DNA of 64,000 bases from Sandaracinaceae bacterium (lineage in GTDB: Bacteria > Myxococcota_A > Polyangia > Polyangiales > Sandaracinaceae): the NCBI GenBank assembly GCA_040218145.1, contig JAVJQK010000070.1, positions 186,001 to 250,000 of the forward strand, in the 5' to 3' direction. The first letter of the stretch is position 1. Each line of letters opens with the position of its first letter. The notes under the pieces were generated by a model. That model was given only the letters and a program-made list of their open reading frames with translations. It did no database searches and was not told where the DNA came from. Positions 45,459 through 63,821 of this stretch are shown one piece after another. A program made the position numbers and the translations under genes.

Positions 45459-45480
45459 TCTCTCCTTCAACGACTGATAG

Positions 45481-45632
45481 GCTAGAGCACATCTCAAAAC
45501 CACGGACCGAGCGTGGCCGAGCCGTGGCTGGGCGCGACGAGGAAATGCGGGGTATTTTCGAGGAGCGAACGGCCGCGGATGGGGCCCGTCCCGCCGGACA
45601 GGGGACGGGAGGGTTTTGAGATGTGCTCTAGC
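45481..45632. repeat. Inverted-repeat element 1 (21-bp perfect arms, related core)
   Basis: Left arm 45481-45501 and right arm 45612-45632 are perfect 21-bp reverse complements beginning GCTAG and ending CTAGC, enclosing 110 bp. The interior has a core near 45535-45571 (CGACGAGGAAATGC...GTATTTTCGAGGAG) that closely resembles the core of element 2 (52330-52496). It also has a nested stem CCCGTCCC / GGGACGGG (45585-45592, 45602-45609). It lies between divergent rSAM and plus-strand genes; the right arm contains the ATG at 45621. Confidence 0.8.
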
Positions 45633-46295
45633 GTAGTGGCAGCGACAGACGCGCTCCAGGGTCAAATGCAGCGGCTGCTGCTCGAGGCCGCGTTCCCCGG
45701 AGGCGTGCCCGCGCTGATCACCGACCTGCTGCCGCCCGACTGGGACCCCGCCGCGTTCGGCGCCGGGCCCATCTTCTCGAGCGACGGCGCGGCTCGCTTC
45801 TACGTGGCCGACGCGGAGGATCGCGAGGCGTGGACGGAGGCGGTCCTGCGCGCCGCGCCCGATGCCCGCGAGCTGCTGGAGGCGGCCCGCCCGGGGACGC
45901 GGCGCATGGTCGACACCGACGGCGACCGCGTGGACGTGTACCTCGATGATCTGCACCTGCGCGGCCACGGCGCGGTCATGTGCGAGGTGCACCATCATCC
46001 GTCGGGCGCGCGCAGTCGCCTCGTGCTGGTCGACTCGCCCGTCGACCTCGGCGTGCTGAGCCCGGCCTGGGGCGTGGGGCGCTTCGCGCGGCGCGTCGGC
46101 GACCGCGAGAGCCTGCTGTGGATCAGCGAGGCCAAGCACACCGGCCGGGCCGCGGAGGTCGAGGCGCTGGCCGCGTCGATGCTCACGCTGCCGCCGGCCT
46201 ATCGAGCGCTGAAGGCGCGCCTGCCCGAGCTCTACGTCGAGGGGGTCGAGCTGCACCCGGACGGACGCGTGGACCTGACCCCGGGGGTCCTTTGA
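45621..46295 (+). CDS. Hypothetical protein of the modification locus
   Basis: 224 residues from ATG 45621, which has GGGAGGG (45607-45613) 7 nt upstream; ATG 45666 is the next possible start. Soluble, no signal peptide. N-terminal hydrophobic helices (LLLEAAFPGGVPALITDLL) are followed by an alpha/beta region with a His cluster (MCEVHHHPSG) and a basic/aromatic segment (WISEAKHTGRAAEVEALAAS). I do not recognise the family. The stop overlaps the TTG start of the halogenase-like gene, so the two are translationally coupled and probably work together. The start codon lies in the right arm of inverted-repeat element 1. Confidence 0.7.
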   Translation: MCSSVVAATDALQGQMQRLLLEAAFPGGVPALITDLLPPDWDPAAFGAGPIFSSDGAARFYVADAEDREAWTEAVLRAAPDARELLEAARPGTRRMVDTDGDRVDVYLDDLHLRGHGAVMCEVHHHPSGARSRLVLVDSPVDLGVLSPAWGVGRFARRVGDRESLLWISEAKHTGRAAEVEALAASMLTLPPAYRALKARLPELYVEGVELHPDGRVDLTPGVL

Positions 46296-49213: not shown

Positions 49214-52200
49214 TCAGGTGTCGAGCACGTGCGGGACTCCGTCCGCCGTGTAGTACGTCACCATGCGGCTGGAGCGGTTGCCGCGCATCATCCGGAGCGA
49301 GTGCTCGAGGTCCTCGACCAGGGCGTCGGCGTCCGAGAGCGAGAGGCCGCGGCCTCGGTCGTGAGCGAGGTCGCGCAGGAGCGAGGGGGCGCGCTCGGCG
49401 ATGGCCCGGAGGCAGCGGCGGAGCTCACCTCGCTGGCCAGCGCGCGCGGCGACGAGCGCCAGGTTGACCCACGCGCTGATCCGCCCGGGTGAGTCCTCCA
49501 CCGCGCGCACGAGATCGGCGCGCGCCTCGTCGTCCCGGCCCAGGAGCCGCAGCGCCTCGCCGCGCACGACGGGGGTCGTCGGGCCGACGAAGGTGTTCCG
49601 GGCCGCGCGGTCCAGCACCTCGAGCGCCGCCTCGGGGTCGCCGGTGACCGAGCGCGCGAGCGCGAGGCCGATGTAGGCCCAGACGGTGCGCGCCGAGCCC
49701 TCGAGGGCGGCCTCGAAGTCGGCGATGGCCTCCTCGTAGCGGCCGGTCCACATGTACAGCTCGCCGCGGTGCGTGTGGACGAGCGGGTGGTGCGCGTACG
49801 TCTCGAGCAGCTCCCCGTAGAGCTCGAGGATCGACTCGAAGCCCACGACCCGCAGCGCGCGGCGCGCGTCCATCGCGGCCGAGCGCGGATCGGGCAGCGG
49901 CGAGAGGCGGCGCGTCCGGCCGGGCTCGATCACCGCGGTGGGGTGGATCGAGAAGTTGCCGGAGAGGGCGTCGAACGCGCGCTCGCAGTCGACGCCGCCC
50001 TCGCACAGCGCCGGGGCGCGGCGAGCCAGATCCGCCACCGCCTCCTCGTCCTCGCGCCAGCCGCGCGCGCTCGCCGCCACGCACGCGAGCTCCGTCAGAT
50101 CGAGGGCGAGCAGGTACTCGCGAGCGCCTTGCCGCGCGGCGTGCAGATGCTGGAAGGCCGCCCGCAGGTCTCCGCGTCGGCGCGCGACGGTCGCGCGCAC
50201 GAGGTGCGGCGAGGACGCCTCCGCGTCGATCTCGATGGCGGCGACGGCGCTCCGGTCGGCCTCCTCGAGGGCGCCCTCACAGAGGTGCGCGGACGCGAGG
50301 ACGGCGTGCGCACGGGCCAGCTTGTCTGCCGACGACGCTCCGCCCGGCTCGAGCAGCTCCGCGGCGAGGGCCCGGGCTCGCTCGGTGTGCCCGGAGCGGA
50401 GCGCCGCCTCGGCCCGGACCACGGCCATGGCGGGCTCCGCGCTGTCCTCGCGCTCGAGCGCCTCGAAGCTCCCGCACGCGAGCAGGGCCTCGGCGCGCCG
50501 CTCGGCTGGACCGGCCACGTGGTCGAGCGCCTCCAGCGCGGAGTCGTAGTTGCGCAGCGCGATCAGCGCCTCGATCTCGATCCAGGCGAGCTCCCCCATC
50601 TCCTCGCCCGCGCGGCGCGCGTCCGAGGTCAGGCGGAGCGCGCGGTCGGGCGCGCCGAGCTCGAGGTATTGCCGAGCCAGCGCCACCCGCCGCCCCCGCT
50701 CCTCGTGCAGCTCCAGCGCGCGTTCGAAGGCCTCGAGCGAGCCGTGCAGCCAGTCGAGGCGGTGGCGGACTTCGGCGAGCAGGAGCCACGCCACCGCCGA
50801 CCCGGGCTCGAGCTCGATCGCGCGATCGAGGAGACGCAAGGCGTCGTGCGGCCTCTCGCGACCGAGGAGCAGGCGCGCGGCCCCGAGCAGCTTGCGGAGC
50901 CGCTCGGCGACCTCGGGGGCCAGCGCGGTCGGCTTGCCACGCTGCCGTCGCGCGCGCTCCGCGATCGCGGCCGCCTCCTTGCGACGACCGGGCGGGAGGA
51001 AGAAGAGCAGGTCACGGAGGCGCTCCCGCCGCCGCTGATGAACCAGCGTCACGCCGACCTCGTCCACGGTGGCCACGCCGAGCTCCACGAGCTTGGCGAC
51101 CGCCTCCCCGCAGCGCTCCTCGATGTCGACGCCGAAGGTGCGGCGAAAGCGCGCGCGGTCGAGCACGTCCCCGTCGCGCAGGACGTAGGAGACATAGGAG
51201 AAGACCTCGTCCTCCTCGCTCATGCGGATGCCGACGTACCGGCGCGAGTCCGGCGCCCTGTCGTCGGTGTCGTGCTCGGCCCGGTACTGGAGGCGGCCGA
51301 AGATCCGCGAGCGCGCCGAGTCGCCGAGGCCGAAGACGTAGAGCGGGCGGTGCGCCTGCGAGGGGACGTCGCAGTAGTAGCCGGTGAACGAGGGCCCCGC
51401 GCGGTGCGTGGTGCGCTGCATGCGGATGAGGTGTTTGCCCCCGCCCGGCACCGCGTAGCCGACCCGCGCCGCGACCTCGCGCAGCGCCTGTGGCACGTGG
51501 CTCTCGAAGCCGGCCAGGAAGCGCTCGTAGCGGGCGAAGTCACCGCCGAAGTGCGCCCCGACGTAGGCCGGCGTCGGCGAGATGAAGTAGATGCTCACCT
51601 CGTCCGGCTGGTGGTCTCGGAGGACCTGCTCGATCTCCGCGACCATGCCCTCGGGCGTCGTGCCGTCGAGCCCCATGAGGAAGTCCACGTTGACGCGGCT
51701 CGGCCCGACGCCCTCGAGCAGCTCGAACTGGCGCGCGATGTGGCGCGCCCCCTGTCGGCCGCGGTTGTGCAGCTCGTTGACGCCGACGTCGGTGGACTGG
51801 ATGCCGAAGGAGAAGCGGTTGAAGCCGAACTCGGCCAGCACCTCCATGCGGTTCGGCGTCATGACCATCGGGTCGTACTCGAAGTTCTTCTGCGCGCCGG
51901 GGGCGAAGCGGAAGGTGTCGTGCAGCGTGGTGAACAGGCGGGTGAGCTGCTCGGCGGAGAGCACCGACGGGGTCCCGCCGCCCACGTAGACGGAGCCGAA
52001 CTCCACCCCCTCGAGGGCGGGCGCGAAGAGCTGCGCCTCGCTCGCGATGAACGAGACGTAGTCGTCGAGCGAGCGCTGGCTCGAGACCCGCAGGCGCGTG
52101 TAGTTGCAGAAGCTGCAGATCGACTTGCAATACGGCACATGCAGGTAGAGGTTCCAGGCCGCCTCGGGCGCGCGCGCGTCGGCCCACACCTCGGCGAGCT

Positions 52201-52327
52201 GCCGCGGGCTCAGCCGCTCACGGCGCGCGCCCCCGTAGTCGTGCACGAAGAGAGACGGGTCGGGGAAGGACAGCGCCTCGGCCATCCGGGCGTTGTCCTC
52301 GCGCTCGCGCTGTGCCGCGGTGGTCAC
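49214..52327 (-). CDS. HemW/HemN-like radical SAM fused to TPR repeats
   Basis: 1037 residues from GTG 52327. Residues about 55-420 are a HemN/HemW-type rSAM module. The CxxxCxxC cluster is C67-x3-C71-x2-C74 in LHVPYCKSICSFCNY, with VGGGTPSVLSAEQL, FSFGIQSTD and VNVDFLMGLDG. A winged-helix-like segment follows (RFRRTFGVDIEERCGEAVAK). From about 480 to 1000 there are 10 or more TPR-like helix pairs (LGRERPHDALRLLDRAIELE, WTGRYEEAIADFEAALEG). HemW is a heme chaperone and HemN a porphyrinogen oxidase; other members methylate or rearrange peptides. The TPR superhelix suggests binding of a protein or peptide. It follows the rSAM gene at 52492 across inverted-repeat element 2. Confidence 0.88.
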   Translation of the reverse strand: MTTAAQREREDNARMAEALSFPDPSLFVHDYGGARRERLSPRQLAEVWADARAPEAAWNLYLHVPYCKSICSFCNYTRLRVSSQRSLDDYVSFIASEAQLFAPALEGVEFGSVYVGGGTPSVLSAEQLTRLFTTLHDTFRFAPGAQKNFEYDPMVMTPNRMEVLAEFGFNRFSFGIQSTDVGVNELHNRGRQGARHIARQFELLEGVGPSRVNVDFLMGLDGTTPEGMVAEIEQVLRDHQPDEVSIYFISPTPAYVGAHFGGDFARYERFLAGFESHVPQALREVAARVGYAVPGGGKHLIRMQRTTHRAGPSFTGYYCDVPSQAHRPLYVFGLGDSARSRIFGRLQYRAEHDTDDRAPDSRRYVGIRMSEEDEVFSYVSYVLRDGDVLDRARFRRTFGVDIEERCGEAVAKLVELGVATVDEVGVTLVHQRRRERLRDLLFFLPPGRRKEAAAIAERARRQRGKPTALAPEVAERLRKLLGAARLLLGRERPHDALRLLDRAIELEPGSAVAWLLLAEVRHRLDWLHGSLEAFERALELHEERGRRVALARQYLELGAPDRALRLTSDARRAGEEMGELAWIEIEALIALRNYDSALEALDHVAGPAERRAEALLACGSFEALEREDSAEPAMAVVRAEAALRSGHTERARALAAELLEPGGASSADKLARAHAVLASAHLCEGALEEADRSAVAAIEIDAEASSPHLVRATVARRRGDLRAAFQHLHAARQGAREYLLALDLTELACVAASARGWREDEEAVADLARRAPALCEGGVDCERAFDALSGNFSIHPTAVIEPGRTRRLSPLPDPRSAAMDARRALRVVGFESILELYGELLETYAHHPLVHTHRGELYMWTGRYEEAIADFEAALEGSARTVWAYIGLALARSVTGDPEAALEVLDRAARNTFVGPTTPVVRGEALRLLGRDDEARADLVRAVEDSPGRISAWVNLALVAARAGQRGELRRCLRAIAERAPSLLRDLAHDRGRGLSLSDADALVEDLEHSLRMMRGNRSSRMVTYYTADGVPHVLDT

Positions 52328-52329
52328 GG

Positions 52330-52496
52330 GCTAGTCACCCGGAACAGCAGTGAGTGGTAGAATTCCGCGAGCCATCGGCGCGCGAATCAAGGAACGACGA
52401 CGAGGAATACCCCGAGTATTTCGAGGAGGAGTGACGCCGAGTCGCGCGTCGAGGGCCGAGGGGTTCTGCCATGAATCGGTGTTCCGGGTGACTAGC
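52330..52496. repeat. Inverted-repeat element 2 (17-bp perfect arms, related core)
   Basis: Left arm 52330-52346 and right arm 52480-52496 are perfect 17-bp reverse complements, again GCTAG...CTAGC at the tips, but the arm sequence otherwise differs from element 1. The core near 52398-52436 (CGACGAGGAATACC...GTATTTCGAGGAG) matches element 1 in sequence, orientation and distance to the right tip (about 60 bp in both). The right arm contains the stop codon of the rSAM gene; the left arm ends 3 bp upstream of the GTG at 52327. Confidence 0.8.
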
Positions 52497-53703
52497 TCTC
52501 GTCGGAGGCGATCGGCAGCGAGCGCACGGGGCGCTCCGGTTGGATGCCGAGCCTCTCCGCCCGACGCGCCACCGCGCCGAGCGAGCGCTCGTAGCGGGCC
52601 TCGCTCTCCTCGGTGATCTGCCCTACCCGCGGCGCCCCCTCGGGTCGCATCTCCGGCGGCGGCAGCTCACCGCTGCGATCCGGGCGCGGCCGGCTCCGGG
52701 CCTCCTCCACGCGCCGCGCGTGCTCGACCTCCCACGCCTCGAAGCTGCGGTGCGCGTAGGACGGGTCGCCGGGGTCGGCGATGATCGCCTCGACGATCGG
52801 GCGGAGCGGGATCGTCAGCGGGCGCAGCTCCGCCGGGTCGAAGCCGTCCCCGCGCTCGAAGAGCCCGCCGCAGATCGACCTCGCCGAGCACTCCGCGCAG
52901 CCGGACGCGTAGATGTGATCCCACTCCGTCTGTCGGACGCTCTGCTTGTCGTCGAGGAAGTGAACGATCCGCTCCTCACCCTTGACGATCTTGCGCGTCT
53001 CGGTGCTCGCCCAGGCGAACTCGGGCATGAAGCACAGCGGCACCCGCTCCACGCGGAAGCTGCGACCGCTCGCGTGCAGGAGGCGCAGCGCGCGGAAGAG
53101 CGACTCGCGGAAGTCGGCGAGGCGGTGGAGGAAGCGCGCCTGGTTGACCTCGGCGCGCCCCATGGACGGGTCGAGGTTGTTCCAGACGAAGTGACGCACC
53201 CGCGGGTGATGGCGGATGAAGTGGCGGATGTTCTCGTCGAGGTGGTCGGCGTTGAGCTTGTTGATCACGCAGTTGACGTTGACCTCGACCCCTCGATCGG
53301 CCGCCGCCTCGATGGCCGCGAAGGCGCGGTCGAGCGTGCCCTCGCTGCCGCGCAGCGACGCCTCCACGTCGGGGCGCACCGAGTAGACGGAGACGTGCAC
53401 CAGATCGAGCCCGGCCGCGGCCACGGCGTCGGCGAAGGCGGGCTCCGCGAGGCGGTGGCCGTTGGTGATCATCCGGACGTGGAGGCCGCGCTCCTTCGCG
53501 TAGCGGATCACGCCGGGCAGCTCGGGGTGCAGGGTGGGCTCTCCCCCCGTCAGCACCACCCCGTAGTAGTCGCGGCGCACGAGGTCATCGACCAGGGCGC
53601 GCAGGCTCTCCTCCGTGTGCACGTAGGGGCTGCTCGGGTTCGAGCAGAAGCCGCAAAAATGATTGCAGTGCCGGACGACCTGGATGTAGCCGATGTTCGC
53701 CAT
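52492..53703 (-). CDS. Radical SAM protein, paralogue of the 25754 gene
   Basis: 403 residues from ATG 53703; the frame extends further upstream but homology with the gene at 25754 begins exactly here (MANIGYIQVVRHCNHFCGFC). AdoMet cluster C13-x3-C17-x2-C20, GGEPTLHPELP, VERVPLCFM and the auxiliary-cluster pattern C-x2-C-x5-C-GG (CAECSARSICGG). The two copies keep identical stretches such as VRHFVWNNLDPSMGRAEVNQ and WASTETRKIVKGEER. No good SD is visible. It lies 17 bp after an HxsD-like gene in the minus-strand operon 57321-49214, which ties this paralogue to peptide modification. Confidence 0.92.
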   Translation of the reverse strand: MANIGYIQVVRHCNHFCGFCSNPSSPYVHTEESLRALVDDLVRRDYYGVVLTGGEPTLHPELPGVIRYAKERGLHVRMITNGHRLAEPAFADAVAAAGLDLVHVSVYSVRPDVEASLRGSEGTLDRAFAAIEAAADRGVEVNVNCVINKLNADHLDENIRHFIRHHPRVRHFVWNNLDPSMGRAEVNQARFLHRLADFRESLFRALRLLHASGRSFRVERVPLCFMPEFAWASTETRKIVKGEERIVHFLDDKQSVRQTEWDHIYASGCAECSARSICGGLFERGDGFDPAELRPLTIPLRPIVEAIIADPGDPSYAHRSFEAWEVEHARRVEEARSRPRPDRSGELPPPEMRPEGAPRVGQITEESEARYERSLGAVARRAERLGIQPERPVRSLPIASDES

Positions 53704-53720
53704 CGAGAGGGGCCGGTCGG

Positions 53721-54194
53721 CTACTCCTCGTCCGCGGCCGGCCGCGCCCACGGCACGTCGACCTCCAGCGGGTCGTCCTCGAGCTCCTCGTCGTCGAGCT
53801 CGGCCAGGAGCTCGTCGATCGTGGTCACCCCCCCGGTCCCGAGGAGCGCGCGGGCCGTGTAGTAGTCGCGGATCTGCCCCGTGGCGAGCGCGATGCGGGT
53901 CTGCAGCGTCGTCTGCGCGAGGCTCGCGGCGAACTCCTCCGCGAGCGAGTCGAGCTGCGCTTCGGTGGCCTCCGAGCGCGCCTCGATCCGGAGCGGGAGG
54001 CGATCGCCCTCCGGCCCGCCCACGTAGACGTAGCAGCGGTCGATGAAGGTGAACGCCGCGTCGAGGATCGCGTCCCGCGGGAGCTGCGACTCGTCGACCC
54101 AGAGCAGGAGCGCCCCGTCTCGGGTCTCGTACTCCAGGCTGAGGCTCTTCTGGCTCACCTGTTTCTCGGTCACGGCGTTCTCGTTTTCGCTCAC
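53721..54194 (-). CDS. HxsD-like small protein (second paralogue)
   Basis: 157 residues from a GTG overlapping the upstream stop. No signal peptide. The region ILDAAFTFIDRCYVYVGGPE, then LPLRIEAR, then a helix DSLAEEFAASLAQTTLQTRI follows the HxsD pattern seen in the 146-residue protein at 57981. Both end in a near-identical acidic tag (ELLAELDDEELEDDPLEV here, ALLSELDDEELAEDALEV there). HxsD-family proteins accompany rSAM maturases of His-Xaa-Ser repeat peptides and probably help substrate recognition, though their exact role is not established. Translationally coupled to the HExxH gene upstream and followed by an rSAM gene. Confidence 0.75.
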   Translation of the reverse strand: MSENENAVTEKQVSQKSLSLEYETRDGALLLWVDESQLPRDAILDAAFTFIDRCYVYVGGPEGDRLPLRIEARSEATEAQLDSLAEEFAASLAQTTLQTRIALATGQIRDYYTARALLGTGGVTTIDELLAELDDEELEDDPLEVDVPWARPAADEE

Positions 54195-55471
54195 GTCGGC
54201 TCCGCGCGGTGGCCCGCAGGCCCGAGTTTATCAGATCCCTCGATCATCGACGGCGTCAGGAGCGCCTCGTCGACCCCCAGCACCAGCTCGTCGTGCGTCG
54301 CGGAGAGGGCCTCGAAGACCTTCAGCCCCTGACGGCTCCAGCGACCGCGCATCCGGAGCGTCCGCAGCCCCTCCGCGTTCTGGGCGAGCACCTCGGCCTG
54401 GCGGCGCGTGAAGCTGGGGTCGTCGGTCGACGGATGGCCCAGCTCTCGCAGCCGCTGGTGCAGGGCCGCCACCGGGACGAACGCGTGCACCGCGAGGAGC
54501 ACGCCGAGCAGGGGGCGCGGGTCCGGCCGCACCGGGGAGGAGACCGCCTCGCTCGCCTCGTTGAGGAGCAGCGGGTCGAGCCAGCGCAGGGCGTTGAGCT
54601 TGCCGTGCTGGGTCTCGTGGATCAGCGCCTCGGCGAGCGTGAGCGGCCGGGGGTGCAGGGTCATGTAGACCGTGCCCGGCGCCTCCAGGTACGAGGCCGA
54701 GAGGTGCTCACGCGGACGATGCCCGACCGGGATCACCCGCTGCAAGCTGTGTTGCAGCTCTGCCGCGAGGCTCGGGAGGGCGAGCGCGATCCACGAGGCC
54801 GCCTCGGCCAGCGCGGCGGTCCACGCCTCGACCGGATGGCCCCCCAGATCGATCGCGTTGCCGTCCTTGTCCGGGTGCGCCTCGTGATCGAAGAGCGGGT
54901 TGGAGTCCAGCTCGGAGAGGTGCGCCTCGAGCCCCGAGATGGGGTGGAGCCGCGCGCGGACCGGCAGCTCGTCGAGGGAGCGCAGGCGCCCTCCCCGCTC
55001 GCGCAGCTCCACGCCGTCCGGGCTGAAGCGGAGGCCCTCCGCCGGCGCGTCGAAGTCGAGCGCGCCGCCGCGGGCGCGGTCGACGAGCGTCTCGAAGGGC
55101 ACGTCCCAGAGCCACGGCTCGAGCGCGCGCGCCTTCGCGGGCGACTCGCCGAGGCGCCGATGCAGCTCGACCGCGAAGGCGGGGACCAGGCGCCGCAGGC
55201 TCTCCTCCCGCGGGAACGAGTCGCGCACCACACAGCCGACGAGCGGCAGCACGTCGGGCGCCCAGAGCGCGGCGAGCGTGGCCGCGGGGGCCGCCTCGAG
55301 GGCCTTGGCGAGCCCGACCTGGAAGCGCGGCAGCGCGCGCCGCAGCTCCGCCGAGAGGCCCTGCCGCGGGAGGGTCAAGAGCGCGCGCGCGGCGACGAGG
55401 AGCGCCTTCTTGCGGATCCGGGCGAGGCTGGCGTCGCCTTCCCCGGGCAGCGTCAGGAAGGTCGCCTTCAC
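54191..55471 (-). CDS. HExxH-motif peptide-modification protein (2-oxoglutarate hydroxylase type)
   Basis: 426 residues from GTG 55471, overlapping the stop of the rSAM gene upstream. The key motif is H285-E-T-Q-H289 in LAEALIHETQHGKLNAL. It is preceded by a DLGGHPVEAW / SASYLEAPGTVYMTLHPRPL region characteristic of the HEXXH-domain proteins that accompany rSAM peptide systems such as FxsB. Related proteins have been described as peptide beta-hydroxylases using 2-oxoglutarate; protease function is less likely. It is cytoplasmic and sits between two rSAM genes and an HxsD-like gene in one coupled operon, so the substrate is probably the same repeat peptide. Confidence 0.78.
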   Translation of the reverse strand: MKATFLTLPGEGDASLARIRKKALLVAARALLTLPRQGLSAELRRALPRFQVGLAKALEAAPAATLAALWAPDVLPLVGCVVRDSFPREESLRRLVPAFAVELHRRLGESPAKARALEPWLWDVPFETLVDRARGGALDFDAPAEGLRFSPDGVELRERGGRLRSLDELPVRARLHPISGLEAHLSELDSNPLFDHEAHPDKDGNAIDLGGHPVEAWTAALAEAASWIALALPSLAAELQHSLQRVIPVGHRPREHLSASYLEAPGTVYMTLHPRPLTLAEALIHETQHGKLNALRWLDPLLLNEASEAVSSPVRPDPRPLLGVLLAVHAFVPVAALHQRLRELGHPSTDDPSFTRRQAEVLAQNAEGLRTLRMRGRWSRQGLKVFEALSATHDELVLGVDEALLTPSMIEGSDKLGPAGHRAEPT

Positions 55472-57321
55472 GTGGTCGAGCCCGCGCCGGCGCGGCGGCG
55501 ACGGAGGAGGCGCTCCTCGGCGATCAGCCCGAGCGGGTCGCGGACCGCCTCGGTCGGGGCGTCGAAGCCGGGCAGGCTCGGGCTCGCGCCCACCGGCGGC
55601 GCGCCCTTGGCCACGTCCGGGAGCGGCTCGGGGAAGACCTCGCGCAGCCGCGCGTCGGCCGCGTCGGCCTCCGCGTCTCCGCCCAGCGGGGTCAGGATGC
55701 CCAGGCCCTGGTCGCGCAGGAGGTTGATGTGAGCGCCCCGGCACCGCGCCTCGACCACGCACTCCCGGCACCGCAGCGACTTGGCGCGGTAGCCGCTCCG
55801 CACGTGCAGCCGCGCGACCTCGTCCACCTGCAGCCGGCCGCTCTCCGCGCCGAAGAGCGAGCGCTCGAGGACGGCGGTCGGCTCGCGGTACCGCATGCCG
55901 GGGGCCAGGCAGACGGGCAGGCCGCTGACCTCGAGGGGCGCGACCGTGGCCTCGGCGAGGGCGGCGAAGAACCGACGGGGGAAGCGCAGATCCTGCTCGC
56001 GCGCGTCGCGCAGCAGCTCGTGGCTGGGCTGGTGCAGCCGGACGCGATCCGCGTGCCGCGCGAGGAGCGCCGCGTTCGCGAGCAGCCACGGCGCGACGTC
56101 CGCGCTCAGCTGGACCTCGACCGTGTGGGGGCAGCCCTCCGGCACGTCCGCGATCCAGCGCTCGAGCTGCTCCGTGGTGACGGCGATCAGCTCCAGGGGC
56201 GTCTCGGCGGGCAGGTCCTCGAGCGAGATCGCCGAGACGCTGCGCACCCGCAGCGGGGCCGGGATCTCCTCGAGCGCGCGGAGCAGCCCGGCGCGATCCT
56301 CGACCTGCACGCCGACCCGGGTGCAGCCGAAGGGGAGCTGGCCGTCCGGCAGCGCGACCGGCGCTTCGGGCAGCTCGCCGATGTCCCAGACCTCGAAGCG
56401 CGCCTCCTTCTGGCGGGTGACGGTCTCGTCCAGGGTCGTGCACATGGGCGCGATGAAGCAGTGCTGACAGCGCTCGGGATCGCGGCAGTCGAAGGGCGCG
56501 CCGTGATCGAGGTAGCGCTGCACCATGAACCGGCGCCCGTTGATCTCGTCCAGCATCTTGTGCGGATCCTGGATGAGGTCCTCGAGACCCTCGAGGTAGG
56601 GCACGGGGAAGCGGTTGGTCCAGACCGTGACCCGCGGGTGGCGGGCGAGCCGGAAGACCTTGTGGAGCACGCCGAGGTGCTCCTTCGGGTCGTAGAAGAG
56701 CTCGTCGCGGTTGTCGAAGGCGGACGCCTGCGGGATCACGTGCAGCAGATCGAACTCGCGGACGCCGAGCGCCATCGAGAGCTCCACGATCTTGTCGAGC
56801 ACGCCGACGTTCTGCTTATTGATGCAGACATCGACGTTGACGATGGGCCGGCCGTCCGCGATGGAATTCACGATGGCCCGGGTGATCCGGCGGAACGCGC
56901 CCGGGGTGCCCGTCAGGCGGTCGTGCAGCGCGGCCGTGTGCCCGTGCAGCGAGTAGGTGATCTCGCCCAGGCCCGCGTCGAGCGCCTGCTCGAGGAAGGC
57001 GGGCTCGCCGAAGAAGTAGCCGTTCGTGACGGTCTGGACCTTCCGGTAGCCGAGCTCTTTGGCGTACGCGACGAAGGCCATGAACTCGGGGTGGAGGCTC
57101 GCCTCGCCGCCCGAGATCACCACCCGCGTCGCGCCGCGCTCGCGCCCCAGCCGGAGATCGGCGCGCACGTCCTCGACCGAGAGGAACACGCCACGCGGGG
57201 TGTCCGAGTCGAGGCAGAACAGGCAGCGGCTGTTGCAGGCGGTGACCGCACGGACCCAGTGCTTCGTCTCGTTCGCGATGGCCTCGCGGCGCAACATCTG
57301 CTCTTGATCGGGGGCCCGCAT
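55468..57321 (-). CDS. Radical SAM protein with a second, cluster-less rSAM-like module
   Basis: 617 residues. The active cluster is C29-x3-C33-x2-C36 (TACNSRCLFCLDSD), followed by ISGGEASLHPEFM. The first half ends with CQHCFIAPMCTT, an auxiliary C-x2-C-x5-C site. From about residue 330 a second module follows whose C-terminal end, LEVSGLPVCLAPG...CRECVVEARCRG, matches the equivalent end of its neighbours (GLPLCVLPQ / CRSCSFTDLCEG in 62646). Its N-terminal half has no CxxxCxxC. It thus looks like an rSAM fused to a degenerate rSAM copy. First gene of the minus-strand operon, divergent from the plus-strand Hxs operon (105-bp gap). Confidence 0.85.
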   Translation of the reverse strand: MRAPDQEQMLRREAIANETKHWVRAVTACNSRCLFCLDSDTPRGVFLSVEDVRADLRLGRERGATRVVISGGEASLHPEFMAFVAYAKELGYRKVQTVTNGYFFGEPAFLEQALDAGLGEITYSLHGHTAALHDRLTGTPGAFRRITRAIVNSIADGRPIVNVDVCINKQNVGVLDKIVELSMALGVREFDLLHVIPQASAFDNRDELFYDPKEHLGVLHKVFRLARHPRVTVWTNRFPVPYLEGLEDLIQDPHKMLDEINGRRFMVQRYLDHGAPFDCRDPERCQHCFIAPMCTTLDETVTRQKEARFEVWDIGELPEAPVALPDGQLPFGCTRVGVQVEDRAGLLRALEEIPAPLRVRSVSAISLEDLPAETPLELIAVTTEQLERWIADVPEGCPHTVEVQLSADVAPWLLANAALLARHADRVRLHQPSHELLRDAREQDLRFPRRFFAALAEATVAPLEVSGLPVCLAPGMRYREPTAVLERSLFGAESGRLQVDEVARLHVRSGYRAKSLRCRECVVEARCRGAHINLLRDQGLGILTPLGGDAEADAADARLREVFPEPLPDVAKGAPPVGASPSLPGFDAPTEAVRDPLGLIAEERLLRRRRAGAGSTT

Positions 57322-57426: not shown

Positions 57427-57984
57427 ATGGCGACACGCAGAGAGTGGTTGGTGTACACGGGCCTGACCGGACTGGCGGCGGCCACCGGGACGCTGGCTCG
57501 GTCTGCCGCGGCGCCGATCCAAGGGGCCATCGAGGGCGCCGACGCTCCCCCGGGACATGCGGCGTCCGAGCCTGACCCCGACGTTTCCCCGGGAGATGTG
57601 ACGCCCGAGGCGCCGCCGCCGTGGTGGGCGCTCGCGCCGCTCCGCGAGGGCTCGGCGCTCGCGGCAGGCTGGAGCCTGGCCTCCCTGAGCCCCGTGCGTG
57701 AGGGTCGGGCGGTGCTGGAGCTGGCGCACGAGGACGGCGCCCGCGCCGAGGTGCACATGCGGAGACGCGGATCGCGCGAAGCCGCCGGCCTCGCGCAGTC
57801 GGAGCGCTTCGACTTCTTCCTGATGAACGGCTCGCGGGGCGACGAGGAGACCCGCGAGGTCCTCGGCCGGCTGATCCTCGGGCTCGCCCTCCACGTTCGG
57901 CGGAACGAGCTCGACGCCCCGGAGGAGCTCATGGCCAGCTTCACCGCCCATCGGGAGACCGGCCAGAGGACGTCCCGAGCGTGA
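57427..57984 (+). CDS. Tat-signal-like protein, first gene of the Hxs operon
   Basis: 185 residues. The N-terminus MATRREWLVYTGLTGLAAAT has a twin-Arg motif (T-R-R-E-W-L) and a hydrophobic stretch, then an Ala/Pro/Asp linker with PGH and PGD turns. It could be a Tat-exported or membrane-tethered protein. The remainder (about 75-175) begins with WWALAPLREGSALAAGWSLA and continues as a beta/alpha domain ending in helix ETREVLGRLILGLALHVRRN. No Cys residues, no recognised family. Its stop overlaps the GTG of the HxsD-like gene, so it is co-translated with the modification enzymes. It may be a regulator, an export partner or a further substrate. Confidence 0.65.
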   Translation: MATRREWLVYTGLTGLAAATGTLARSAAAPIQGAIEGADAPPGHAASEPDPDVSPGDVTPEAPPPWWALAPLREGSALAAGWSLASLSPVREGRAVLELAHEDGARAEVHMRRRGSREAAGLAQSERFDFFLMNGSRGDEETREVLGRLILGLALHVRRNELDAPEELMASFTAHRETGQRTSRA

Positions 57985-58421
57985 GCGCGCCGAGCGTGAG
58001 CGGGCCGGGACCGGTCGTCCACGACGATCGTGCGTCGCTGCGGATCGACGAGCGGGTGTTCCCGCTCGAGGTGATCTACGGCGCCAGCCTCCACCTGCTC
58101 GAGCGCGCCTACGTCCGCCTCGAGCGCGTCGGCGACGGCGTCGTGGAGCTGCAGATCCGCGGCAAAGAAGGCGGCGAGCCCCGCGCCCTCGCGGGAGAGC
58201 TGGCCAACGAGATGCTCAACCAGTGCATCCGCCACCGCCTCGGCGATCGGGCGCGGCGGCTGCGCGAGGCTTACCTCGCCAAGTCCTTCTCCAATCGGAA
58301 GTCGACCCTCGACGCGCTCCTGAGCGAGCTCGACGACGAGGAGCTCGCGGAGGACGCGCTCGAGGTGCGCAGCCAGCCCGAGGCCACGAGCCCGGCGGCG
58401 GCCACGGAAGGTGACGCATGA
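57981..58421 (+). CDS. hxsD: His-Xaa-Ser system protein HxsD-like
   Basis: 146 residues from GTG 57981, overlapping both neighbours by 4 nt. The HxsD pattern is clear: RVFPLEVIYGASLHLLERAY, a beta strand VVELQIRGKE, then LAGELANEMLNQCIRHRLGD and a basic helix DRARRLREAYLAKSF. A C-terminal acidic tag (ELDDEELAEDALEV) is shared with the paralogue at 53721. HxsD occurs with HxsB/HxsC rSAM maturases and His-Xaa-Ser repeat proteins; its role may be in substrate binding, but the mechanism is unproven. Its place directly before HxsB-like and the repeat protein supports the call. Confidence 0.82.
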   Translation: MSAPSVSGPGPVVHDDRASLRIDERVFPLEVIYGASLHLLERAYVRLERVGDGVVELQIRGKEGGEPRALAGELANEMLNQCIRHRLGDRARRLREAYLAKSFSNRKSTLDALLSELDDEELAEDALEVRSQPEATSPAAATEGDA

Positions 58422-58660
58422 GCGAGCGAGCCGATCAGCGAGCCACGCTGAGCGCCGATCTCTATTCCATCGCGGCGCTCCGGGCGAGCGCCGAGGCGTT
58501 CTCCTCGCTGGCCGCGGTGAGCGTCGAGCAGGGTGACAAGGAGCACACGATCACGATCACGGATGCACGAGAAGATGTGTTGGACCGCGTCCTCGACGAA
58601 CTGCTCAACCACGCCCTCGAGGGGACGATCCTCGGGCTGCGGGAGAGCGAGGCCCGATGA
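58418..58660 (+). CDS. Short HxsD-like protein (third paralogue, N-terminus reduced)
   Basis: 80 residues; ATG overlaps the upstream stop and its own stop overlaps the start of the HxsB-like gene. It corresponds to the helix-strand-helix core of HxsD (LYSIAALRASAEAFSSLAAV, EHTITITDAREDV, LDRVLDELLNHALEGTILGL), matching the LANEMLNQCIRHRL part of the previous protein. It lacks the N-terminal segment and the acidic tag. The HxsD relationship is an inference from pattern and position rather than strong identity. Confidence 0.6.
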   Translation: MSERADQRATLSADLYSIAALRASAEAFSSLAAVSVEQGDKEHTITITDAREDVLDRVLDELLNHALEGTILGLRESEAR

Positions 58661-60159
58661 AGAAGACCATCCCGCTCCCCATCCTCGAGGCGGACGAGAA
58701 CGCCCTCGGGTTCTTTCGCCACGGGCGGATCGACGACCGCGTCATCCTGACCAACGACGCCGGCGAGTGGCAGCTCATCGGCGAGGAGGACTTCCAGAAG
58801 CTCCTCAAGGGCGAGATCGAGCCCGCGCACCCCGACTACGAGTCGCTCGTCGACAAGGGGTTCGTGCGGGACGGCCTGAACATCGAGGCGCTGGCCTCGC
58901 GCCTGCGGCGGAAGAAGGGCTTCGTCGGCCAGGGCCCGCACCTCCACATCGTCATCACGACCCTGCGCTGCAACCAGAGCTGTCAGTACTGCCACGCCTC
59001 GCGGACCGAGATGGACCAGGTCTCGACCGACATGTCGATGGAGACCGCGAAGAAGGTCGTGGACCTGGCCATGCAGACCACGTCTCCCTACGTGAACTTC
59101 GAGTTCCAGGGCGGCGAGCCGACCGTCAACTTCCCGGTCCTGAAGTTCATCGTCGAGTACAGCCGCGAGAAGAACAAGACCGAGAAGAAGCTCCTCGAAC
59201 ACTCCCTGGTCACGAACATGACCTACATGACGGAGGAGCACGCCGAGTGGCTGATGGACAACGAGGTGATGGTCTGCACCAGCCTCGACGGCCCGAAGGA
59301 GCTCCACGACGCCAACCGCCGCTGGAAGAGCGGGGGGAGCGCGTACGAGGACGTCGTCGGCTGGATGAAGCGCTTCAACGAGGGCTACATCGCGCGCGGC
59401 AAGGACCCCCGCCTCTGGTCCGTGGACGCGCTGATGACCACGACCCGCCGGAGCCTCGACCTCGGCAAAGAGATCGTCGATCTCTACGTGGAGATGGGGC
59501 TCAAGACCATCCACCTCCGGCCCCTCAACCCCTACGGCTTCGCGGTCGGCACCTGGAAGGCCATCGGCTACACGGCCGAGGAGTACCTCGACTTCTACGC
59601 GCGCACGCTCGACTACATCATCGAGCTGAACCAGAAGGGCGTGGAGATCACCGAGGGGACGGCGTCGACCTTCCTGATGAAGATGCTCACGCCCGACGAT
59701 CCCAACTTCGTCGACATCCGCTCCCCCTGTGGAGCCGGCACGGGGCAGGTCGCGTACGACTACGACGGCTCGATCTTCACCTGTGACGAGGGGCGCATGG
59801 TCTCGGCCATGGGCAGCGACCTCTTCCAGATCGGCGACGTCTCGAGCAGCAGCTACACGGACATGCTGCAGCACCCGACCGTCAAGGCGCTGGCCGTGGC
59901 GAGCCTCCAGGACGCGCTCCCGTCGTGCCACACGTGCTGGAACAAGCCGTACTGCGGAGTCTGCCCCATGCACGACTACATGCAGGGCGGCGACATCTTC
60001 GGGCAGCGCCCGCGCTCGCCCAAGTGCAAAGAGCACTACACGATCGCGACGCTCCTGTTCGAGAAGCTCGCCCGAGACGAGGACGGCTCCCTCGAGAAGA
60101 TGTTCCGACGCTGGACGCTCCGGCGTCCGCGTTCCGAAGCGGCTTCCTGCAGCGCCTGA
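58657..60159 (+). CDS. hxsB: His-Xaa-Ser system radical SAM/SPASM maturase HxsB-like
   Basis: 500 residues. An N-terminal recognition-like segment (FRHGRIDDRVILTNDAGEWQ) is typical of HxsB. The rSAM cluster is C105-x3-C109-x2-C112 (TTLRCNQSCQYCHASR), followed by FEFQGGEPTVNFPV. The C-terminal SPASM-type auxiliary clusters include DIRSPCGAGTGQ, IFTCDEGRMV and CHTCWNKPYCGVCPMHDY, with a last Cys in SPKCKEHY. This is the standard architecture of HxsB, which modifies His-Xaa-Ser repeat substrates through radical chemistry. The gene overlaps the HxsD-like gene upstream, and the repeat protein follows after 9 bp. Confidence 0.88.
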   Translation: MKKTIPLPILEADENALGFFRHGRIDDRVILTNDAGEWQLIGEEDFQKLLKGEIEPAHPDYESLVDKGFVRDGLNIEALASRLRRKKGFVGQGPHLHIVITTLRCNQSCQYCHASRTEMDQVSTDMSMETAKKVVDLAMQTTSPYVNFEFQGGEPTVNFPVLKFIVEYSREKNKTEKKLLEHSLVTNMTYMTEEHAEWLMDNEVMVCTSLDGPKELHDANRRWKSGGSAYEDVVGWMKRFNEGYIARGKDPRLWSVDALMTTTRRSLDLGKEIVDLYVEMGLKTIHLRPLNPYGFAVGTWKAIGYTAEEYLDFYARTLDYIIELNQKGVEITEGTASTFLMKMLTPDDPNFVDIRSPCGAGTGQVAYDYDGSIFTCDEGRMVSAMGSDLFQIGDVSSSSYTDMLQHPTVKALAVASLQDALPSCHTCWNKPYCGVCPMHDYMQGGDIFGQRPRSPKCKEHYTIATLLFEKLARDEDGSLEKMFRRWTLRRPRSEAASCSA

Positions 60160-60168
60160 GAGTACGAC

Positions 60169-60555
60169 ATGTCCGACGACGACAAGCGAAGGCCCCTCCC
60201 ACTGCTCCGCTCCGAGACCGAGCCGGAGCGGAGCCGCGTCCGACGCGGCTCGAGCGCCGAGAGCCCGTTCCCCAAGCACTCGAGGTCGCCCGCGCAGTCG
60301 CTGCTCGCCGGCGAGCGGGAGGTCACGACCCGCCCCGGCCCGCTCGAGGAGCTTCTGATGGAGGCCGACGGGCTCGCCGAGGACCCCGCCTTCGACGGGA
60401 TCATGCTCGTCCAGCACTGCTCGCACAGCTCGCACGGATCTCACGGATCGCACGGATCTCACGGCTCCCACGGGTCGCACGGATCGCACGGGTCGCACGG
60501 ATCACACGGCTCGCACGGATCGCACGGCTCTCACGGCTCGCATGGGCAGTGGTAG
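60169..60555 (+). CDS. His-Gly-Ser repeat protein, probable modified precursor (HxsA-like)
   Basis: 128 residues. The N-terminal part (about 1-80) is polar and Arg/Glu/Pro-rich, without a signal peptide. It ends in an acidic helix-like leader (EELLMEADGLAEDPAFDG, then IMLVQ). The C-terminus is HCSHSSH, followed by 12 consecutive Gly-Ser-His units, ending GQW. This is a His-Xaa-Ser repeat with Xaa mostly Gly, as in HxsA proteins, the presumed substrate of HxsB/HxsC. Repeat codons vary widely, pointing to selection on the peptide. It is embedded between HxsB-like and another rSAM gene, whose start overlaps its last codons. Confidence 0.88.
   Translation: MSDDDKRRPLPLLRSETEPERSRVRRGSSAESPFPKHSRSPAQSLLAGEREVTTRPGPLEELLMEADGLAEDPAFDGIMLVQHCSHSSHGSHGSHGSHGSHGSHGSHGSHGSHGSHGSHGSHGSHGQW
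60436..60543 (+). repeat. Twelve 9-bp units encoding Gly-Ser-His
   Basis: Twelve contiguous 9-bp units read GGN-TCN-CAY. Gly codons alternate between GGA, GGC and GGG, Ser uses TCT, TCG, TCC and TCA, and the last His is CAT. The variation makes recent slippage unlikely and argues the His-Gly-Ser register is kept by selection. Confidence 0.9.
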
Positions 60556-61624
60556 CCCGGGCGACGCGCGCCGCCGACGCACGGGTCGCTCGGGTGGCAG
60601 GGATCGCAGCAGCCTGATCCTCACGATCACGCGCGAGTGCGACCTCCGTTGCAGCTACTGCCCCACCGTCAAGGAGGGCTGGCCGAGCCTCGACCCGGCG
60701 CAGATCGAGCGGGCCATCGCCCTCTTCTGCGATCGCTTCGGGGGCGGCGACGTGAAGCTCTTCGGGGGCGAGCCGCTGCTCTTCCCCGCGCTGGTCGACG
60801 CCGCGCTCGAGGCGGCCCAGCGCGATCCCCGCGTGCACAGGATCTACCTCTCGACCAACGGGCTCGGCCTCGACGAGGCGCGCCTCGAGCGGCTCGCGCG
60901 AGAGCCCAAGCTCGTGCTGACCGTGTCGATGGACGGAGAGCCCGCCGACCACCGTCGCCTGCGTCGCCCGCTGAACGTCGTGGACGGCGAGACGACCCGC
61001 GACGCCTACGCGCACCTGCGCGCGCTCATGCCGACGCTCCGGCGCATGCCCCGGGCCGTCGTCACCCAGACCATCGCGCCGGCCACCGCCGCGCGCGCGG
61101 CGCGCAACTTCGCGCACCTGAGGCAGCTCGGCTGGTGGCGCTTCAACCTGCTCCCCGGCTACTACCTCCCCTGGCGCGCGGAGCAGCTCACGGACCTGCG
61201 TGAGGGCTTCGCGGAGATCGGACGCGACATCCGGCGCGCCTGGGCCGAGGGCGAGCGACTCTACGTCCGCAACCTCTTCACGCTCGCGCCGACCCCCTTC
61301 TTCAACGTCGGCATGGTGGTGGACTCGGACGGCAGCATCCACGCCTCGAACGTCGGCCTCGCCTCCTCGATGAGCGAGCTGCTCGACGTGACCCGGGTCG
61401 GGAGCCTCGACGATCCGCCGAGCCGCGAGGCCCTCTCCGCGTCCGCGGCCGAGCTCCCGCGCCTCCTCGAGGAGACCGTGCCCGCGCCGATCCTGGAGTC
61501 CACGCGCGCGGTCGACGCGGCGCTGAGCGCGCTGGTGCGAGACCTCTACCCGGCCTACCTCCGGGCTCGCGCGCGGCGTCGCGCGTCCGCCGTCGCGCTC
61601 GGCGCTCCCGGAGGCGCGGCGTGA
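60542..61624 (+). CDS. Radical SAM protein of the Hxs locus
   Basis: 360 residues. ATG 60542 lies inside the last codons of the repeat-protein gene (14-nt overlap), so translation is coupled; no separate SD is visible. A basic N-terminus (RRRRTGRSGGRDR) precedes the cluster C33-x3-C37-x2-C40 (ITRECDLRCSYCPTVKEG) and LFGGEPLLFPALV. The barrel continues to about residue 260 (LVLTVSMDGEPADHRRLRRP, WWRFNLLPGYYLPW), then a short helical C-terminus. There is no auxiliary Cys cluster. A place beside the repeat protein makes it a candidate HxsC-like maturase, but the family match is not certain. Confidence 0.83.
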   Translation: MGSGSPGDARRRRTGRSGGRDRSSLILTITRECDLRCSYCPTVKEGWPSLDPAQIERAIALFCDRFGGGDVKLFGGEPLLFPALVDAALEAAQRDPRVHRIYLSTNGLGLDEARLERLAREPKLVLTVSMDGEPADHRRLRRPLNVVDGETTRDAYAHLRALMPTLRRMPRAVVTQTIAPATAARAARNFAHLRQLGWWRFNLLPGYYLPWRAEQLTDLREGFAEIGRDIRRAWAEGERLYVRNLFTLAPTPFFNVGMVVDSDGSIHASNVGLASSMSELLDVTRVGSLDDPPSREALSASAAELPRLLEETVPAPILESTRAVDAALSALVRDLYPAYLRARARRRASAVALGAPGGAA

Positions 61625-62649
61625 GACACCTGCCCGTCCTCGCGGACCACACACCGGCGCAGCCGTTGGCCGAGGCGCCGCCGGAGCGGCCTGACTGGAT
61701 CGGGCCGCGCGGCGAGCGCACCGAGTGGCTCGAGCTCCACCTCACCTATACCTGCCCCGAGCGCTGCCTCTTCTGCTCCGAGGAGCACCGGATGCGGCGC
61801 TACAAGCCCTACCCGGTCACCTGGGGGCGCACCGCGACGGTGATCCGCGAGCACGCGCGGCGGGGTGTGCGGAGGGTCCACCTGACGGGCGGCGAGCCGA
61901 CCATTCACCCGCGCTTCGTCGACACGCTGAAGCTGGCGAAGAAGCTCGGCATGCGCACCTCGGTCGGCACCATCGGCACGATGCTCGCGCGGCGCGACTT
62001 CGCCGAGCGCGCGCTCCCGTTCCTCGACGAGGCGCTCTTCTCGCTGCACGGGCCGAGCCCCGAGGTGCACGACGCGATGGCGGGCCGGGAGGGCTCGTTC
62101 GCGCAGGTGACCACGGCGCTGCGGCTCAGCCGCGAGGTCGCGCCCCGCTTCCACCCCTACGTCAACATCGTGATGACCCGGAAGAACGTCGCGCAGCTCC
62201 CCGAGACGGTGACGCTCGCGGCCTCGCTCGGGGCGGAGCTGGTGGTGATCTCCAACCTGACCCCGGAGGGCCTCGGGCTCGACGCGTACGAGGAGCTGGC
62301 GGTGCCGCTCGACCGCCTCGCCGAGGTCCTGCCGCGCCTGCCGGCGTTGGCCGGAGACGTGCCGCTGCGCTTCTTCGGTGTGCCGATGTGCCTGCTCGGG
62401 CCCCACCGCATGCTCAGCAACGATCTCCACTGGGACCCGCGGGTCACCGTCGAGTGGGCGGACGCGGGCCCGGACAAGGTCCGCTTCGCCGACCACTACA
62501 ACTGGGATCCGGGGCGCAAGCGGATCCACGTCGAGGAGTGCGAGCCCTGCGCGATGAAGGGGGTGTGCATGGGGGTCTTCGACCGCTACGCCGAGCTCTA
62601 CTCCACCGACGCGCTGAAGCCCGAGACGAAAGCGGAGGTGAGCCCGTGA
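61621..62649 (+). CDS. Radical SAM protein with C-terminal auxiliary cluster
   Basis: 342 residues from a GTG overlapping the upstream stop. Cluster C45-x3-C49-x2-C52 (TYTCPERCLFCSEE), LTGGEPTIHPRFVD, and ALFSLHGPSPEVHDAM. The C-terminal half carries FFGVPMCLLG and the auxiliary pattern C-x2-C-x5-C-x-G (CEPCAMKGVCMG). This makes it a member of the same subfamily as 25754, 52492, 55468 and 62646. The N-terminal 40 residues are Pro/Glu-rich. Part of the coupled plus-strand operon; substrate presumably the His-Gly-Ser peptide. Confidence 0.85.
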   Translation: MRHLPVLADHTPAQPLAEAPPERPDWIGPRGERTEWLELHLTYTCPERCLFCSEEHRMRRYKPYPVTWGRTATVIREHARRGVRRVHLTGGEPTIHPRFVDTLKLAKKLGMRTSVGTIGTMLARRDFAERALPFLDEALFSLHGPSPEVHDAMAGREGSFAQVTTALRLSREVAPRFHPYVNIVMTRKNVAQLPETVTLAASLGAELVVISNLTPEGLGLDAYEELAVPLDRLAEVLPRLPALAGDVPLRFFGVPMCLLGPHRMLSNDLHWDPRVTVEWADAGPDKVRFADHYNWDPGRKRIHVEECEPCAMKGVCMGVFDRYAELYSTDALKPETKAEVSP

Positions 62650-63821
62650 GCGCCGAGCTCGACGTGAGAACCGGGCGCGCGCGCGGGCTCCAGGCCGACA
62701 GCACGTATCGCGATCCTCGACGCAACGTCGAGATCAACATCGGCAAGACATGCAACAACAAGTGCGTGTTCTGTCTCGACGGGATGCCCACCCGCGAAGA
62801 CAAGGCCTTCATGCCGTTCGAGGACATGAAGACGGAGCTCGAGCGCTGGCGCGCGGAGGGACATCTCTCGGTGGGCTTCCTCGGCGGCGAGCCGACCACG
62901 TACCCGCACATCATCCCGTCGGTCGCGTACGCGAAGGAGCTCGGCTACACCCGCATCGCGCTGGCCACCAACGCGATGATGCTGCGGAGAGAGCCGTTTT
63001 TGGACAAGCTCGTGGAGGCCGGCCTCAACCGCGTGACGGTCTCGATGCACGGCCACACCGCGCCCCTCGAGGATCGCCTGACGATGGTGCCGGGCGGCTT
63101 CGAGAAGAAGCTGACGGCCCTCCGCAACCTCACCGCGCGGAGAGACCGCGGGCTGATGACCGAGGGCGTCTCGGTCAACGTCGTCCTCAACGGCTGGAAC
63201 TACCGGGCCCTGCCGAAGATGATGAAGTTCTTCCTCGAGACGGTCGGCCTCCACGACATGCGGGTGAACTTCGTCCGCCCGGAGGGCTACGCCGAGGGCA
63301 ACCCTGATCTGGTCCCCACGTTCACCGACGTGGTGCCCTACCTCGTCAAGGCGATTCTCCTCAACGAGTACCACTTCCGCCGCGTCTTCACCTTCGGTGG
63401 GCTGCCGCTGTGCGTGCTCCCGCAGGAGCTCCTCCGGAGCGAGACGCTGCTCCGGAAGTACGCGGGCGACCTCTATCGCGACCTGAGCACCGACTGCTCC
63501 ATCCGCACCGAGTCGACCATCCCCGACGGCTTCGAGGACGGCGTCTCCGAGATCGAGGGAGGTCGCGCGCGCTTCAACTGGCAGGACCGCAAGCGCTTCG
63601 ACCTCAAGAAGCACCCCGAGGCGTGCCGCAGCTGCTCCTTCACGGATCTCTGCGAGGGGGTGTGGCGCGGCTACCGCGACCTCTACGGCGAGGGCGAGAT
63701 CGCGCCGCTGCGCTGGGAGCGAGGCGCCGCGAAGCGCCTGCTGCCGCGCGTCGATCGGGCGCCCGCGGCGAAGGTCGCCCCTCGCGCGAAGTTCGGCCGG
63801 CGGCTCGTCGTCATCCAGTGA
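62646..63821 (+). CDS. Radical SAM protein with C-terminal auxiliary cluster
   Basis: 391 residues from GTG 62646, overlapping the previous stop. Cluster C36-x3-C40-x2-C43 (GKTCNNKCVFCLDGM), LGGEPTTYPHIIPS, RVTVSMHGHTAPLEDRLTMV. The C-terminal FGGLPLCVLPQELL and auxiliary C-x2-C-x5-C-x-G (CRSCSFTDLCEG) match the neighbours and the C-terminal module of 55468. The first-half sequence also resembles 55468 (SMHGHTA versus SLHGHTA). Last recognised gene of the Hxs operon; no terminator hairpin was identified in the 92 bp that follow. Confidence 0.87.
   Translation: MSAELDVRTGRARGLQADSTYRDPRRNVEINIGKTCNNKCVFCLDGMPTREDKAFMPFEDMKTELERWRAEGHLSVGFLGGEPTTYPHIIPSVAYAKELGYTRIALATNAMMLRREPFLDKLVEAGLNRVTVSMHGHTAPLEDRLTMVPGGFEKKLTALRNLTARRDRGLMTEGVSVNVVLNGWNYRALPKMMKFFLETVGLHDMRVNFVRPEGYAEGNPDLVPTFTDVVPYLVKAILLNEYHFRRVFTFGGLPLCVLPQELLRSETLLRKYAGDLYRDLSTDCSIRTESTIPDGFEDGVSEIEGGRARFNWQDRKRFDLKKHPEACRSCSFTDLCEGVWRGYRDLYGEGEIAPLRWERGAAKRLLPRVDRAPAAKVAPRAKFGRRLVVIQ

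Follow-up and report, generated by a model that had tools for sequence, protein, structure and literature searches.

The open reading frame at 60169-60555 (+) of the window, that is, of the whole 64,000-nucleotide stretch of DNA analysed here, is on balance probably the precursor of a His-Xaa-Ser (Hxs) radical-SAM RiPP pathway of GQW type, which would combine crosslinking, hydroxylation, a C-terminal step and export to the cell envelope. Sequence comparison assigns the precursor, HxsB and the hydroxylase to their families, identifies the repeated unit as His-x-Ser and brings out two couplings, that of the GQW ending with the radical-SAM gene rS2 and that of HxsA4 with HxsB and an HExxH enzyme. 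HxsA4 is a recognised peptide family that is chemically uncharacterised; the first-pass annotation missed both that the family is already catalogued under this name and the enzymes that surround the gene.

Results

Two divergent operons surround the precursor gene

The precursor, 128 aa long by translation of the ORF, scores 108.2 bits against the HxsA4 model NF038313 (cut-off 55, NCBIfam profile search). Its gene starts 9 bp after the end of the upstream HxsB gene, in a plus-strand operon whose ORFs, from 57427 to 63821, nearly all overlap end to start (Table 1). A divergent operon begins 105 bp away, and the two together hold six radical-SAM genes, counting HxsB and excluding the HemN-like/TPR gene. 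Because HxsA4 and the upstream HxsB pass their curated cut-offs, the locus belongs to a recognised kind, the Hxs radical-SAM RiPP systems (HxsA TIGR03979, HxsB TIGR03978, HxsC TIGR03977, HxsD TIGR03976). It resembles these in HxsA4, HxsB and the HxsD-like protein, which together with the hydroxylase are the only locus components over curated cut-offs, but it differs from them in two respects: (i), no HxsC, HxsC4 or HxsD was found over its cut-off in the locus, the best candidates being rS5, rS4 and the two HxsD homologues, respectively; (ii), it adds five radical-SAM genes, an HExxH hydroxylase and a twin-arginine protein.

Table 1. Features of the HxsA4 locus, in coordinates of the window.
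Feature	Position	Strand	Evidence and remarks
Radical SAM (HemN-like)/TPR protein	49214..52327	-	uncertain member of the divergent operon, perhaps its last gene
rS5 radical SAM, HxsC-like, below cut-off	52492..53751	-	TIGR03977, 101.9 bits of 267.9
HxsD homologue 2, below curated cut-off	53721..54194	-	TIGR03976, 34.6 bits of 50
alphaKG-HExxH-type peptide beta-hydroxylase	54191..55471	-	TIGR04267, 97.5 bits, cut-off 40; start inferred, a GTG overlapping the rS0 stop
rS0 radical SAM, opens the divergent operon, two additional Cys clusters	55468..57321	-	PF04055, 57.9 bits
Small twin-arginine-start protein	57427..57984	+	conserved start, RR kept in all 13 aligned rows
HxsD homologue 1, below curated cut-off	57981..58421	+	TIGR03976, 28.6 bits of 50
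HxsD-like protein	58418..58660	+	NF038315, 52.3 bits, cut-off 41
HxsB radical SAM/SPASM maturase	58657..60159	+	TIGR03978, 517.8 bits, cut-off 370
HxsA4 precursor	60169..60555	+	NF038313; leader about residues 1-81, then HCS HSS (HGS)x12 HGQW
Repeat core (14 His-x-Ser units, then HGQW and the stop)	60415..60555	+	sequence, tandem-array analysis
rS2 radical SAM, CX3CX2C only, overlaps the HxsA4 stop	60542..61624	+	PF04055, 57.2 bits
rS3 radical SAM, C-terminal Cys cluster	61621..62649	+	PF04055, 79.3 bits
rS4 radical SAM, HxsC4-like, far under cut-off	62646..63821	+	NF038332, 133.4 bits of 500

C-terminal Cys clusters are kept in rS3, rS4, rS5 and rS0; rS2 has the cysteines of the SAM cluster only. 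The AlphaFold model of HxsD homologue 2 (mean pLDDT 78.5) has the core order beta-alpha-beta-beta-alpha, and PqqD is absent from its best 50 Foldseek matches, which are headed by a type III secretion chaperone (E 2.5e-3, TM below 0.5); a reading of HxsD as a PqqD-type RRE gains no support from them. About half of the residues of the twin-arginine protein are modelled at a pLDDT of at least 90, with no meaningful PDB match to its fold (best E 0.07); the twin-arginine start of this neighbour weakly suggests an envelope destination. Two further ORFs lie elsewhere in the window: one of 1,344 aa at 42222-46256 (-), with B12-binding and PapB-like radical-SAM domains, a close relative of which (1,273 bits) is found next to a GQW locus in another family (L060), and another HxsC-like radical-SAM gene at 25754-26959 (+), which scores 96.7 of 267.9 bits and has the same relatives as rS5.

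The repeat is conserved as His-x-Ser

The frame has exactly the pattern first described for it, ...HCSHSSH-(GSH)x12-GQW-stop, and tandem-array analysis resolves the tract into 13.6 copies of a 9-nt unit (score 153). The Gly-Ser-His register that came with this description has to be replaced. Counted over every in-register unit after the first in 76 distinct arrays (36 GQW and 40 GSW, duplicate cores having been removed before units and arrays were counted), His is kept in 1,049 of 1,050 units, Ser in 1,041 and Gly in 1,011, so that Gly differs in 39 units, Ser in nine and His in one. Since His and Ser are kept above Gly, the conserved motif, and with it the correct register, is His-x-Ser with a small x. 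Frameshifted or lost repeats, which had been named as grounds for rejecting a precursor, do not appear as a trend: the arrays stay in frame over lengths of 6 to 49 units, the exception being a GSW array in which only 3 are counted, and masked bases interrupt one array (in L070). An in-frame stop turned up in one HxsA4 copy (G372:C41) in the phylum search, and frameshifted copies may have escaped the array scan because it took open frames only.

The leader motif LPxhx(R/K)xxxx(F)LxxxE is kept across phyla (alignment, read by eye), and the terminal Trp, earlier proposed as a special site, is kept in both the GQW and the GSW sub-types. With leader motif, unit and terminal Trp all kept in orthologues, the first-pass annotation's view of a modified-peptide precursor-like protein, with a leader and a selected repeat, gains support. 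The single Cys before the repeat fares differently, not being universal: 21 of 36 GQW and 39 of 41 GSW arrays open with HCS, the others (15/36 and 2/41) with HAS, HGS, HSS, HTS or other units. Because the first unit varies in this way among arrays, the Cys is common but dispensable, and its role as a required site gains no support.

Codon choice had been said to vary in every position of the array. This is so for Gly (GGA6/GGC4/GGG3) and Ser (TCG9/TCT3/TCC1/TCA1/AGC1), but not for His, which is CAC in 14 of 15 codons, as in the adjacent genes (38/39). The accompanying claim that selection keeps the pattern gains support: TCN and AGY Ser codons are mixed in 47 of 77 distinct arrays, and as no single synonymous change links TCN to AGY, the mixing supports purifying selection on the protein, which is kept across phyla. 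Because it is conserved as protein in this way, the repeat is not due to chance, and unit conservation across phyla together with codon divergence rules out a DNA-level artefact as the origin of the arrays. The arrays are not codon-scrambled beyond their neighbours, their Ser and Gly diversity being lower, over 41 loci, than that of HxsB from the same locus; the GGA excess of the window array (6/13 against 8/119) therefore does not generalise. Among 1,063 adjacent 9-nt units 152 are identical, nominally fewer than the 210 expected by reordering.

HxsB and a peptide hydroxylase accompany HxsA4

HxsB over cut-off was found in 28 of 30 HxsA4-positive genomes, most of which had been picked because no HxsB was seen near HxsA4, and in none of 20 HxsA4-negative genomes; it is often on another contig from HxsA4. 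Of the two genomes in which it was missed, one is 68% complete and the other has the gene split over contigs. Conserved cysteines of HxsB lie at 105/109/112 and, towards the C-terminus, at 424/427/433/457 (alignment). The nearest solved structure is 5wgg (E 1.2e-26), which we take to be that of CteB, a thioether-forming maturase; the cyclophane enzyme ChlB is matched much more weakly (E 1.2e-4). By score the protein is nearest to the PapB, quinohemoprotein and SCIFF maturases, with the ranthipeptide maturase PapB as the next NCBIfam model (134 bits), and its matches to models of the known cyclophane families are far below their cut-offs (YhhB 58.7, GrrM/OscB 56.2 and FxsB 46.4 bits).

A new finding at the level of gene content is that a predicted alphaKG-HExxH peptide beta-hydroxylase co-occurs with HxsA4. 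In a sample of 377 Myxococcota genomes, such an enzyme passes the cut-off in 110: in 96 of the 127 with HxsA4 (HMM matches, covering 113 of the 115 genomes tallied, plus GQW and GSW pattern matches) and in 14 of the 250 without (Fisher 3e-46, a value that overstates independence because the 377 genomes are related to one another). Enzyme and precursor share a contig in 37 cases and lie within 15 kb of each other in 28 of these. The enzyme is missing from 31 of the 127 HxsA4 genomes, 19 of them in families f27, f49, f41 and f43, and from 4 of 43 GQW genomes. Among nine GQW records outside Myxococcota and Proteobacteria it is present in two, both Elusimicrobia (G399, G402), and there on the HxsA4 contig. 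Several of the 30 GQW genomes reached via named records have contig coordinates in common with genomes of the sample and are not independent of it. In the window, the HExxH motif of the hydroxylase is intact (conserved H292/H296 and H336), and the protein aligns with ChlH (8s5f_A, E 3.7e-4) through HExxH and an R-x-D-x-R-P stretch.

The GQW ending is coupled to rS2

Also new, from the same kind of comparison, are two endings, GQW and GSW, the former coupled to one radical-SAM gene, rS2. GQW arrays occur in 43 of the 377 genomes, GSW arrays in 86 and both in 3, the search for GSW having covered Myxococcota only. A scan of the contig collection for GQW ends gave 36 stretches, mostly labelled Myxococcota, Deltaproteobacteria or Proteobacteria, with others from Elusimicrobia, Omnitrophota, Schekmanbacteria and Azambacteria. 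Called at an identity of at least 52%, rS2 is present in 43 of the 377 genomes, 41 with GQW and two without (G068, G307); two GQW genomes lack it (G203, G208), 332 genomes have neither, and it was found in 0 of 83 GSW-only genomes. The Fisher value for rS2 with GQW, 6e-50, comes from the same related genomes and is inflated likewise. Since a single branch (97/92) of the HxsB tree splits GQW from GSW, the coupling may be one ancient event. Matches resembling rS2 are weak or absent within the stretches covered for the nine GQW records labelled Elusimicrobia (4), Omnitrophota (2), Schekmanbacteria, Azambacteria or just 'bacterium' (L090).

Gene content was mapped in 18 GQW stretches, several of which end early at contig ends or at the extracted length. 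HxsB and an HxsD homologue are present in all 18, the twin-arginine protein in 17, rS3 in 16, rS2 in 15 (and in one more, G003, by the separate rS2 search), rS0 and rS5 in 13 each, the HExxH enzyme in 12, once in the adjoining stretch L147, and rS4, taken at 450 bits or above, in 8. Neither rS2 nor rS3 was found in the ten mapped GSW stretches. The architecture of the window recurs gene for gene in the GQW region of L135 (genome of L102), and the nearest named record, a Sandaracinaceae MAG (MED-G138; L073), has an HxsB that is identical over 480 columns. Other conserved neighbours of GQW loci are large lipoprotein-like ORFs, seen in 6 and 5 of 17 stretches.

Discussion

In the pathway that we favour, the leader would be bound through its LPxhx(R/K)xxxx(F)LxxxE stretch, and HxsB, with rS5, rS0 and the HxsD proteins, would oxidise the H-x-S units one after another. 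Most plausibly, each His side chain would be bonded to the Ser at i+2, comparable to three-residue cyclophanes. Beta-hydroxylation by the HExxH enzyme would follow within the modified units, with His as the leading candidate, and rS2 and rS3 would either recognise the C-terminal Gly-Gln-Trp or act on it. Export of the product is probable, the neighbour's twin-arginine start being the one indication of it; in the cell envelope, where the product would work, its large number of identical modified imidazoles could serve to bind metals or in redox binding. Across the phylum, the pairing with an alphaKG-HExxH enzyme turns this into a concrete hypothesis, a radical step followed by beta-hydroxylation and iterated along the chain, and the GQW/rS2 coupling points to a possible second, end-specific reaction.

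As a sequence, the HGS tract is compatible with a bond from an aromatic residue (i) to C-beta (i+2). Such i to i+2 cyclophanes are described in the available part of PMC11002830, where HaaB links His C2 with Ala C-beta, and MscB links Phe with Ser C-beta; the triceptides of HaaB, YhhB and MscB have in common with the window an aromatic residue at i, a partner at i+2 and a short motif, but HxsB is not close to their maturases by profile. Because the motif fits and there are precedents on each side, a His(i)-Ser(i+2) crosslink is plausible. ChlB/ChlH likewise pairs a radical-SAM enzyme with an HExxH hydroxylase, whose domain the window hydroxylase matches, and according to the accessible text of PMC12636437 ChlH hydroxylates His and Asp dependent on a preinstalled cyclophane; the window differs in its maturase family, in its long HGS repeat and in having the hydroxylase gene non-adjacent to the precursor. 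A short-unit repeat precursor that is radical-SAM-modified at each unit is also known from TvgA/TvgB poly-cyclopropylglycine, there with TVGG units, Val chemistry and another maturase (PMC9062424, in part). Of the papers listed, just two were seen to mention Hxs, PMC9062424 and, as a gene list, PMC8446631; no mention was found in PMC7470986 (RRE-Finder), and no characterised Hxs product in the open-licence literature. The precursor is real, and no prior description of the variant in which it occurs, a GQW type with a peptide-hydroxylating enzyme, was found in that literature.

Another radical reaction is possible because HxsB is nearest to 5wgg and, by profile, next to PapB. That an Hxs precursor carries a different radical modification, such as an ether or C-N bond from Ser or imidazole, an epimerisation or a dehydrogenation, is thus a serious possibility, if short of an even one; the nearness of HxsB to the PapB, quinohemoprotein and SCIFF maturases and the lack of any Hxs product in the open-licence literature speak for it, but thioether chemistry requires Cys, which occurs in only 1 of 1,050 units past the first. 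It is improbable that the protein is instead an unmodified, unprocessed His-rich buffer whose His residues bind Zn, Ni or Cu: His at every third residue, as the most invariant position, would suit such a role, but the near-obligate HxsB partner, the adjacent radical-SAM genes and the linked hydroxylase would not, and the near-invariant Ser would be superfluous for metal binding by His only.

We give hardly any credence to a collagen-like or other structural Gly-x-y repeat. The match to PF01391 (28.7 bits against a gathering threshold of 27.2; Scl-type models match weakly) is a by-product of the periodic Gly, which is the least kept position of the unit, in a tract that lacks Pro and has HxsB for a partner. 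Equally negligible is a low-complexity expansion without function; repeat numbers of 6 to 49 are as expected from slippage, but the unit is kept in Myxococcota, Elusimicrobia, Omnitrophota and other-labelled records while the codons diverge, and the two kinds of serine codon are mixed in more than half of the arrays (47/77). The favoured crosslinking and hydroxylation pathway also has a more elaborate form, in which an HGS ladder of 6 to 49 units would carry iterative His-Ser crosslinks and beta-hydroxylation, end in a Gln-Trp cap set by rS2/rS3 and serve as a metal or redox polymer in the envelope. All of this together we consider rather unlikely; if true, the GQW and GSW ends would mark two products with a common ladder and a different cap.

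Several related loci vary on this theme. The genome of the window holds a second HxsA4 array (L033, G000:C33:338011-338289) that ends in GSW and is accompanied by a separate HxsB (510 bits to that of the window); neither rS2 nor rS3 was found in the 20 kb covered there. In the GSW arrays of L128, L129, L131 and their relatives (families f27, f49, f41 and f43), a hydrophobic stretch comes after a leader of SEEGKIT type, and no HExxH enzyme passes the cut-off in their genomes; these arrays are perhaps a third sub-type, with a leader closer to the Elusimicrobia/Omnitrophota precursors. A record titled Klebsiella pneumoniae MAG (L107) has a GQW locus, and its title is probably a mislabel because its contig coordinates are those of G184:C12 in the Myxococcota set. 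At L054/L085, one cluster holds two GQW precursors of very different length (126 and 190 aa), and small proteins of twin-arginine type lie close by.
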